A stretch of DNA of 41,342 bases from IMG/VR virus record IMGVR_UViG_3300025585_000076, positions 1 through 41,342 of that record; one strand, 5' to 3'. Shown piece after piece: positions 23,968 through 34,701 of the stretch. The notes under the pieces were generated by a model, which saw only the letters and a list, made by a program, of their open reading frames with translations, did not search any database and had not been told where the DNA came from. The translations under genes and the position numbers were made by a program. Within the stretch, counting starts at the first letter, position 1. Each line of letters starts with the position of its first letter. This DNA comes from a virus.

Positions 23968-25002
23968 CTACTTTGTTTTAGAAAGCCATTGCAAATATAC
24001 CTGATGTGCTATCTGAGCGGTCATTACGGGCGGCACACTCATACCGATTAGATACTTCGGTTCGATGGCTTTGAAGTTGTAATCGAAGGGGAAGGTGCCG
24101 CTCTGACAGAACTCGGTTTTTGTCATCCATCTCGGTTCGTTTTTGAGAATGAACTTACCGCCTGACGTTATGGTCGGTATAACCTCGTTTTCGCTCAACA
24201 GATAGTCGGTGAATCCATTTGCTTTGCCCCGAACATCCGCTAATGTTCGGTCAGATTGCTTTTGCTTTTTCCAAAGATCAAACTGAACTTCGGTTAGGTC
24301 ATTTGTTAATTTTTGTTCCTGATATTCCATAAACGGTATCGCCTCCTCATTGAAGTTCAGCACCAACCTCGGCAACTTCAAATCCTTTCGTTGGCAAATG
24401 AAAAAAACCCGCTCACGTTTCTGCGGTACCCCCATACTTGCCGCGTTCAATAGGAATAACTGAACGGTATACCCCGCAACCTCAAATTCGGCTTTGATCC
24501 GTTTCACATATGCTTTAGCATTGCCTTGCAGCATACCCTTAACGTTCTCAGCAATGACTACCTTCGGCTGTAAACGCTTTGCAAGTTCGATATAATCAAA
24601 GAATAGATCATCGAGTCGTTGCTTTGCCTGACCCTCTCGGAACACCTTTTCTTTTCCCCAGTCTTTTTCCCTATTGCCCGCCATACTGAATGATGAGCAA
24701 GGGGGCGAACCGTCTAAAAGATCAAGGTGAAAAAGCTCAGACGGTAACTCAGTGCGCTTGACAAATTCCCGAATATCCTCAACAAAAAGGTGCTTCGGCT
24801 TGTGATTTGCGCGGTACACATCGGCTACTTGCGGATCAATCTCAACCCCGCCTAAGTGGTCGAACCCCGCCAACTTGTAGCCCATAGTTGAACCGCCACC
24901 ACAAATGAAAGTGCCGAACACCTTTGAGCCGTGGTAATCAATTCCCTTTGCAGGGTATCCATCGGCAAGAGTCCACCTATAATGGAACTTGTGTCCGCTC
25001 AT
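23968..25002 (-). CDS. DNA (cytosine-5) methyltransferase
   Basis: A 344-aa protein with the C5-methyltransferase motifs in order: motif I variant FICGGGSTMGYKLAGF at 32-47, catalytic GSPPCSSFS at 98-106 (Cys102), ENV at 152-154, and QKRER at 194-198. A target recognition region (about 215-300) and a closing motif region follow. It would methylate cytosine in phage DNA, probably to evade host restriction; the site cannot be read. No cognate restriction gene is next to it. It shares an ATGA overlap with the ParB-like gene, so the two are made together. Confidence 0.9.
   Translation of the reverse strand: MSGHKFHYRWTLADGYPAKGIDYHGSKVFGTFICGGGSTMGYKLAGFDHLGGVEIDPQVADVYRANHKPKHLFVEDIREFVKRTELPSELFHLDLLDGSPPCSSFSMAGNREKDWGKEKVFREGQAKQRLDDLFFDYIELAKRLQPKVVIAENVKGMLQGNAKAYVKRIKAEFEVAGYTVQLFLLNAASMGVPQKRERVFFICQRKDLKLPRLVLNFNEEAIPFMEYQEQKLTNDLTEVQFDLWKKQKQSDRTLADVRGKANGFTDYLLSENEVIPTITSGGKFILKNEPRWMTKTEFCQSGTFPFDYNFKAIEPKYLIGMSVPPVMTAQIAHQVYLQWLSKTK
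23992..23999 (-). promoter_or_regulatory. Terminase operon promoter, -7 element
   Basis: The minus strand reads TATATTTG in the last codons of the methyltransferase gene. The GTG start of the small terminase gene lies about 32 nt downstream. Confidence 0.6.
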
Positions 25003-32485: not shown

Positions 32486-33316
32486 TTACTTTATGTTAAG
32501 TCTCATTTGTTTGTATATACCTTTCTTTTCTGGATATTGCTGATCTTTTAATACCATGCTTGCGCCACACATTTCTTTGCATGTGCCACACTTTCCAATG
32601 TAAATAGATGGTCTGTGCATGCTTACTATTTGCTTCGCCCCAAGAAACTTTTTCACATCGGTTTTTATCAGGTTTGACTTTACGAATGGGTTGTTTTTTC
32701 CGACACGTAAAACCGTGTCAATAACACCATCATTTGCAAATAGTTGATTTTGAATTTCATTCATCCTTGCACCCTCATTAGTTTCAATGTTAAACCTACA
32801 TGAAACAACCCTCAAAAGTGATTTGCAGTAACGCTTTAGTACTTCATATTGCTCAACTGCGTTTATTCGCTGTCGCTCGCTATCTAATGCTGATGTGCTT
32901 GTGTTAATACATATATTGATTGTTTTGAAATAATCAAGGTGTTCTTGCGTTAGATTAGTCCAATGCTTTGTTACTACAACTATGTGCTTGTTGCACTTCT
33001 CAATCTGCCTTATAATTTTCACCGTATGTTCCCAATCTTCTGACGGATCGCCACTTGTTCCCATGCGCACAAAATCGAGTTTAGCGCGATTTATGCTGTT
33101 TACTATTTCGCGCCTGTGCTTTTCACTCTTAAAGTTGCGCTTGACGCTTTGGCTAAAGTCATACCCATATCGGGCCGCTGCGTTTGCCGCATAGCAGTCA
33201 TGGTAACAGCCGCCATCATATTCGGCCATGCCATACCTGCAACCGATAAGGGGGTCTAATGAATAGACCCCCCTTGAGTTCCTCGTAAAACTGATTATGT
33301 CTGAATAGGTCCTCAC
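32486..33316 (-). CDS. Radical-SAM-like protein (DUF5131-like layout)
   Basis: A 276-aa protein. Cys26, Cys37 and Cys41 (LIGC, then GGCYHDCYA) form a Cys cluster in the layout of phage DUF5131/radical-SAM proteins, whose members read GC ... GC-x-x-CYA; here the spacing is 10 and 3. Further marks are GTSGDPSEDW at 86-95 and VVVTKHW at 113-119, common in this fold, and a C-terminal CGTCKEMC (243-250) that could hold a second cluster. It overlaps the methyltransferase by ATGA. Its sequence is more AT-rich than the rest of the phage. It may act on a modified base or on DNA; this is inference. Confidence 0.65.
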   Translation of the reverse strand: MRTYSDIISFTRNSRGVYSLDPLIGCRYGMAEYDGGCYHDCYAANAAARYGYDFSQSVKRNFKSEKHRREIVNSINRAKLDFVRMGTSGDPSEDWEHTVKIIRQIEKCNKHIVVVTKHWTNLTQEHLDYFKTINICINTSTSALDSERQRINAVEQYEVLKRYCKSLLRVVSCRFNIETNEGARMNEIQNQLFANDGVIDTVLRVGKNNPFVKSNLIKTDVKKFLGAKQIVSMHRPSIYIGKCGTCKEMCGASMVLKDQQYPEKKGIYKQMRLNIK

Positions 33317-34701
33317 AACCTACCTATATTAACGTGTCTGTCCTTTATCTTCGACATATCGCCCTTATAGAAAATCAATATCTTCTGTTCACGCTTCGGG
33401 AACTTTCTGTAATGAAGCGTTCTTTTAGCATGCGCCAATCGTGTAAACTCACACTCAAGGTATACAATCTTGTTGTAGATATGTAGCCCTTGCTCTTTGA
33501 AAAATAGTTCATGTTCAGCTTCACACCCATAATAAGCCCCGTTCTTATCTCTGCTGTCTCCCGTCATTACAACGAAAAAGCAATTATCATTCAGGGCCTC
33601 AATAGCGTTCTTGTATCCCATGAAAAGCGTATCCCTGAACTCTTCATAAGTGGGTAATGAGTTAAGCTCACCTTTAGGCGGGTTGCCGTCATAATCGAGG
33701 TAATCTTCAACCTGATAGTATGGTGGGCAGGTGAACACTAAATCGTATTTCTGCTTAGGCTTAAACTTTGAGCTATCAGATTGCAGCCATTTCGTGTTAT
33801 AAAAGTCCTGACAGATAGCGTTGTTTGCATCACATTGATTCTGCCTGATCTCGCTTGACAGGTATTCGTACCCGCAATAACCAGTTACAAAGCCGAACTG
33901 AACGCCACCGCCAAACGGGTTATATACACGAACACCGTCCTTTGGCATGAAGAACCGAAGAATAACCTCACAGGCCACTGGGTCAAGAACAGATACGTTT
34001 CCATTAAATGACTTGCCCTTTTTATTGACTACTTGCCCGTCCTCTATTTCTTGAGTGGCAAGCACAACATTAGACATTCCATTATCACCCATCCAAGCAC
34101 CTTCACGGCTTGCAAATTTTGGGTTTTCAATGCCGTGGCGTTCCCCCGCATCTTCAATACGCTCGTTCCATTCGCGCTTCATTTTCAACCAGTCAGCGCG
34201 TGTTGATATCCACACATTTGTCATTGTGGCATGTGCAAGCCTTTTCATACGCACTTGCTCAAACGTACCGTAGACCACGTACGAATAACCGCTCATGTTC
34301 AGGTACTCTTTGAACCCGATTGAGAAAAATACCTTCGGGTTTTCGAGGTCATGCTTTTGGCTAACGGTCATTACCATTGGATAGCCGTACGTGTTTTGCT
34401 TAATGATCTCATTCACCATTTGCTTGTAAATGTCCTTGTCTTTTTTGTCCAATGACATTGCAGACTGCAATAGACAGAACTCCTTTGCATCGTGATTTAC
34501 CTCGAACGTAAAGAACCCTGCAAACTCATCATTGATCTTTAGAATGATCGCTGAATGTATCTGCATGTTTTTACGTGCCGCACGGTATGCCACCTTGTCT
34601 TCTATCGCCAGTTTAGCAACAGCGGTTTCGTACCCAGACCCTATGACTGATGGCACGTACTCAAATGATACCTTATCCTCAAAAAGTCGTTCCTGTCTCA
34701 T
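33313..34701 (-). CDS. DNA methyltransferase with N-terminal GNAT-like domain
   Basis: A 462-aa fusion. The C-terminal ~220 residues form an amino-methyltransferase (N6-A or N4-C type): NPFGGG at 261-266 is motif I of the DPFxGxG kind, and TCPPYY at 324-329 is the catalytic motif IV. Residues about 40-150 resemble a GNAT acyltransferase (IILKINDEFAGFFTFEV, then ending IGFKEYL), a fold that includes the Mu Mom DNA-modification enzyme. I choose ATG 34701; the longer frame would begin at a TTG inside the promoter. It is coupled to the radical-SAM gene. DNA modification is very likely; the exact product is unknown. Confidence 0.7.
   Translation of the reverse strand: MRQERLFEDKVSFEYVPSVIGSGYETAVAKLAIEDKVAYRAARKNMQIHSAIILKINDEFAGFFTFEVNHDAKEFCLLQSAMSLDKKDKDIYKQMVNEIIKQNTYGYPMVMTVSQKHDLENPKVFFSIGFKEYLNMSGYSYVVYGTFEQVRMKRLAHATMTNVWISTRADWLKMKREWNERIEDAGERHGIENPKFASREGAWMGDNGMSNVVLATQEIEDGQVVNKKGKSFNGNVSVLDPVACEVILRFFMPKDGVRVYNPFGGGVQFGFVTGYCGYEYLSSEIRQNQCDANNAICQDFYNTKWLQSDSSKFKPKQKYDLVFTCPPYYQVEDYLDYDGNPPKGELNSLPTYEEFRDTLFMGYKNAIEALNDNCFFVVMTGDSRDKNGAYYGCEAEHELFFKEQGLHIYNKIVYLECEFTRLAHAKRTLHYRKFPKREQKILIFYKGDMSKIKDRHVNIGRL

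Follow-up and report, generated by a model that had tools for sequence, protein, structure and literature searches.

The 41,342-base window analysed here, a complete IMG/VR caudovirus record, encodes on its minus strand two overlapping genes that are a real, strongly linked, and near-obligate pair across viral genomes. The first, MT (33313..34701; 462 aa from an ATG), joins a GNAT-fold domain to an amino-type DNA methyltransferase; the second, RS (32486..33316; 276 aa, GTG start), belongs to a family designated RS-A and is predicted to be a divergent radical-SAM protein. We favor, with some confidence, the interpretation that this cassette is a DNA-base hypermodification system in which all three domains (radical-SAM, GNAT, and methyltransferase) cooperate.

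Setting and conservation of the gene pair

By its gene content (portal, large terminase, tape measure, primase, helicase, and a RecT-like protein) the record is that of a tailed phage, with a terminase closest to those of Bacteroides and Flavobacterium phages (~29–33% identity). MT and RS sit amid same-strand replication and recombination genes, the RecT-like gene upstream and those for primase and helicase downstream. A C5-cytosine DNA methyltransferase (23971–25002, minus strand; PF00145, 4.5e-46; PHROG_116) is a second DNA modification gene of this phage.

An earlier, sequence-only reading of this DNA had described the two genes as overlapping by ATGA; the overlap is indeed 4 bases (33313..33316, minus strand), but reads GTGA. 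In most relatives with separate genes, it is 1 or 4 bases. The pair had also been described as more AT-rich than its surroundings, and indeed, at 42.3% GC, no other stretch of equal length in the record is as AT-rich: 694 others average 51.0% and none falls below 47.0%; in relatives, the median for the cassette is only ~3 points under that of the flanks. A promoter and a dyad proposed for the pair do not rise above chance: sigma-70-like sites number 4, vs. 6.8 in shuffled sequences, with none immediately upstream of MT, and the dyad (CGCCT-N6-AGGCG) is present with a folding z-score of just -0.76.

Relatives of MT are encoded at 92 IMG/VR loci, 80 of which (67–93% identical) were kept. In this MT-seeded set, an RS-A gene is beside or fused to MT in 72 cases, a protein of a second radical-SAM family (RS-B) is found instead in six, and two loci are cut by contig ends; there is, in other words, an adjacent radical-SAM gene at all 78 informative loci. 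A search seeded with RS-A found MT adjacent in 80 of 80. Pooling the searches, which biases the set because the partner is itself among the queries (the MT-seeded set is free of this bias), a radical-SAM partner was found for 146 of 151 distinct MT sequences: 98 have a separate RS-A gene (95 downstream of MT, three upstream), 32 are radical-SAM–GNAT–methyltransferase fusions, 16 have an RS-B protein with a CX3CX2C motif, and five have none. Four of these five are at contig ends, leaving a single true exception with full flanks (L088, from Riemerella); at one further locus, on a bacterial MAG contig (L082), the RS-B gene is truncated. MT may therefore act alone in some genomes. In the Riemerella columbipharyngis sequence, a Cas9-like protein (PDB 7enh, 1e-4; L088 1022–3691) is encoded two genes upstream of the GNAT-methyltransferase homolog, whose N-terminal part has a weak resemblance (0.011) to LPG_synthase_C.

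Sorted by flanking DNA, these cassettes form 56 unrelated groups, with assorted replication and recombination genes as neighbors but no third gene that accompanies the pair throughout. That the pair is kept across all these groups, and fused in 32 distinct sequences, bears out its earlier description as a unit. Distances among RS sequences follow those among MT sequences (r = 0.74, matched in none of 2000 permutations), with RS the less conserved of the two (mean identity 52% vs. 69%), and where RS-A is absent, RS-B occupies the same position. Most of the cassette sequences are metagenomic; no RS-A protein was found in 50,697 records of isolated, named phages.

Predicted domains of MT and RS

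The methyltransferase domain of MT (residues 236–462; 33316..33996, minus strand) has motif I as NPFGGG and motif IV as TCPPYY, and the strings YNPFGGG and CPPYY are invariant in 39 homologs. The C-terminal half of the protein matches the phage DNA methyltransferase families PHROG_12517 (6e-39) and PHROG_498 (4e-38), with a match to Pfam N6_N4_Mtase (2.6e-4) that falls under the cut-off. Amino-methyltransferases usually have D, N, or S in motif IV where MT has a cysteine. PADLOC matches (MTase_II, 3e-8; mad2, 1e-5) were read as generic methyltransferase similarity.

The N-terminal 145 residues (34267..34701, minus strand) match no family by profile among those searched, Pfam included. Their assignment comes from an AlphaFold2 model of MT (pLDDT 79.6, pTM 0.81), in which the strands and helices follow the GNAT order (E11-16 H25-35 H39-42 E50-56 E59-69 E74-82 H89-100 E109-114 H122-126 E131-136 E139-144), and from matches to GNAT proteins in BFVD, with TM scores to the target of up to 0.73. 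A chain of sequence matches agrees with this structure-based assignment: the GNAT profile of the MT family retrieves a tandem paralog at one locus at 8.8e-21, and that paralog matches the EctA acetyltransferase model TIGR02406 (3.8e-9) and carries the string KWKGNGLA. This second, tandem GNAT-methyltransferase (L019 5254–5871) has its GNAT loop intact and is cut by the contig end. In the MT of the window, the canonical CoA-pyrophosphate loop (R/QxxGxG/A after strand 4) is absent, the sequence there being CLLQSAMSLDKKDKDIY, and motif-like strings were found in just two of 39 N-terminal regions of the family. With the loop degenerate in the main MT family, use of acetyl-CoA is uncertain and CoA binding doubtful. 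The GNAT core residues are conserved nearly as strongly as the methyltransferase half.

For RS, the AlphaFold2 model (pLDDT 92.9, pTM 0.90) has a radical-SAM barrel fold, with Foldseek matches to the epimerase EpeE and to spore photoproduct lyase (SPL) at probabilities of 0.96–1.00 and E-values of ~1e-3 to 1e-2. Its cysteines are in two clusters, CX10CX3C and a C-terminal CX2CX3C, and all six are invariant in 35 homologs. The spacing of the first cluster is CX9-11CX3C in nearly all RS-A members, and 25 in one. The canonical CX3CX2C motif was not found in RS-A; none of 35 RS-A proteins matches PF04055, and no direct match to a radical-SAM family model was found. There is a weak match to DUF5131 (1e-3), and a weak link to the second family, RS-B, whose proteins are reached by the RS-A profile at 3.6e-5 (hhalign E 3.7e-4, probability 36%). 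Together, the fold, the invariant cysteines, and these two weak matches predict RS to be a divergent radical-SAM protein. The literature on DUF5131 and TcmP offered nothing of use. RS-A folds like SPL, but differs from the SPL, PA0069, and DUF5131 proteins in its CX10CX3C spacing, its lack of a repair context, and its tie to a GNAT-methyltransferase.

RS-B proteins are SPL/PA0069-like radical-SAM proteins with CX3CX2C: three of four members tested pass the Pfam Radical_SAM (PF04055) cut-off, and they match PA0069 (1e-20), and SPL models below cut-off. Genes of the RS-B type also occur in other phages without a GNAT-methyltransferase (loci L177–L241, e.g., L189 4974–6292), where they often adjoin and are sometimes overlapped by a small ParB-domain gene; some are next to the terminase. 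A ParB cluster member is nearby at 39 RS-B loci, and the two genes are possibly another radical-SAM DNA modification pair.

Several features inferred in the sequence-only reading thus have support from these models and homologs: an amino-methyltransferase joined to a GNAT-like domain, a radical-SAM-like partner with two cysteine clusters, and the GNAT fold of the N terminus, on which that reading had staked itself. A relationship to Mu Mom closer than shared membership in the GNAT superfamily is not supported: there is no match to PF25680 (Mu Mom itself scores 2.4e-75), and the hhalign probability is 0.2%.

The degenerate GNAT loop also speaks for an alternative in which MT would do no more than methylate DNA, its GNAT-fold domain binding DNA or protein with no catalytic role, while RS would do a different job, for instance photoproduct repair or anti-defence. 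The Riemerella locus with MT but no radical-SAM gene, and the MAG locus with a truncated RS-B, fit this as well. Set against it are the 32 fused proteins, the near-total linkage, the exchange of one radical-SAM family for another, and a GNAT core conserved almost as much as the methyltransferase half, and we consider it quite unlikely.

Relatives and known systems

The closest annotated relatives of the methyltransferase half are phage ParB-methyltransferases. In named phages this domain is mostly joined to ParB, and [TSG]CPPY is found in all 12 relatives compared. The halves are homologous and share this motif IV (PHROG_498/12517; Listeria B054 gp77 and Mycobacterium Vincenzo gp1, for example), but the N-terminal domain is ParB where MT has GNAT, and the partners, where present, are a SAM decarboxylase or a PLP enzyme rather than a radical-SAM protein. 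In Croceibacter phage P2559S and Pseudomonas phage ZRG1, the relative (a ParB-methyltransferase in ZRG1) is next to and overlapped by a SAM decarboxylase gene (L244 2024–3665, L245 1967–3812), an identity to which a PDB match (7e-16) can be added for one of the two; aminopropyl transfer to DNA is a candidate function for these methyltransferase and decarboxylase pairs. In Mycobacterium phage Vincenzo, a ParB-methyltransferase overlaps the gene for an ACC-deaminase-like PLP enzyme (5.5e-12; L249 1–2275); in Pam4 (L248 1012–3501) the methyltransferase is inside an 829-residue protein, PLP-dependent by annotation alone. The recurrence of this methyltransferase family next to genes for SAM- or amino-acid-processing enzymes suggests, at the level of gene context, the transfer of groups larger than methyl.

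These neighbors also raise the possibility of a modified cofactor: the partner, leaving the base itself alone, would convert SAM (or some other alkyl donor) into an altered form, whose new group the methyltransferase domain would then move onto DNA. There is a precedent in the phage CmoA/CmoX/CmoY system, where tRNA chemistry is repurposed to make 5-carboxymethylcytosine in DNA (PMC12783734), CmoX working with carboxy-SAM. As proposed for MT and RS, RNA-modification chemistry is reused there with a DNA methyltransferase-like enzyme; it differs in using carboxy-SAM and an ATP-dependent ligase, in having neither radical-SAM nor GNAT, and in the CmoX motif SPPC. For the present cassette, a remade cofactor seems unlikely: neither CmoA (TIGR00740) nor a SAM decarboxylase was found in this phage record, the radical-SAM half resembles enzymes that act on substrates (SPL, EpeE), and the GNAT domain is left with no role.

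A cooperating three-domain enzyme, the interpretation we prefer, has its nearest analog in Elp3, the catalytic subunit of Elongator, where radical-SAM and GNAT (KAT) domains are joined and an acetyl radical, made with SAM and acetyl-CoA, is added to a tRNA uridine (PMC9704764). The phage cassette has the same two kinds of domains; in Elp3 their order is radical-SAM then GNAT, as in the 32 fused phage proteins, although this phage encodes RS and MT as two distinct proteins. It differs in its additional methyltransferase domain, its degenerate GNAT loop, and its substrate, presumed to be DNA. Homology to Elp3 was rejected, since neither the window nor the fused proteins match TIGR01211 and no match to solved Elp3 structures was found; Elp3 is kept only as an analogy. 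Pressed further, it would make the target an RNA, such as tRNA, a reading to which the structural comparisons lend something: PDB Foldseek matches of MT are methyltransferases, and the best single one is the tRNA methyltransferase Trm11. We regard an RNA target as improbable, given that the sequence relatives of the methyltransferase half are phage ParB and DNA methyltransferases, that the cassettes sit amid replication and recombination genes, and that the Elp3 family is unmatched. DNA is the inferred substrate in what follows.

Mom of phage Mu places an acyl-type group on adenine (PMC7824862). It likewise has a GNAT fold in a phage protein, and MT probably also acts on DNA bases, but there is no profile similarity between the two, MT has no HYS or SFAD signature, and Mom is without a methyltransferase domain and, in Mu, without an annotated adjoining radical-SAM gene. 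A Mom-like gene overlaps a ParB-like gene in Microbacterium phage MenE (L162 2469–3728), followed by a tRNA-Gly gene.

The sequence-only reading had known of no described system with this pairing, and no description of a radical-SAM and GNAT-methyltransferase pair was found in the literature searched, of which most subscription journals and preprints were not a part, so an earlier prediction is possible. Hypermodification of DNA, also proposed there, stays the best reading, shorn of the Mom kinship, the separate promoter, and the dyad.

A possible mechanism

The linkage, the fusions, the intact motifs, the predicted folds, and the exchange of radical-SAM families support one enzyme system, which probably attaches a substituent bulkier than methyl to bases of the phage's own DNA, likely as a shield from host restriction. 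By analogy with Elp3, this could conceivably be a radical-SAM/GNAT/methyltransferase machine for coupling acyl-derived radicals to DNA bases, a modification and a route undescribed so far; we offer this chemistry only tentatively. Counting against the cooperating-cassette reading as a whole are the RS-A Foldseek E-values of only ~1e-3, the non-canonical cysteine spacing, the absence of a direct family match, the doubtful CoA binding of the GNAT domain, the lack of an Elp3 family match, and the two loci where MT has no intact partner.

The order of steps, the donor, the target base, and the product are all speculative, but the sequence might be as follows. The methyltransferase domain would bind DNA, flip an adenine or cytosine base out of the helix, and perhaps methylate its exocyclic amine. 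RS would cleave SAM at a [4Fe-4S] cluster bound by CX10CX3C. The hydrogen it would then abstract could come from an acyl donor in the GNAT domain, in parallel with Elp3, or from the N-methyl group just added. The carbon radical would couple, leaving an acyl-derived substituent, for example carboxymethyl or carbamoylmethyl, on the base.

In its fused form, the system is testable with one expressed protein. If the proposal is correct, phages would be decorating their DNA by way of radical-SAM chemistry coupled to GNAT and methyltransferase domains. DNA hypermodification would gain a new type of reaction, and Elp3 a counterpart that works on DNA; the system could also bear on the origin of acyl-type groups such as that of Mom.
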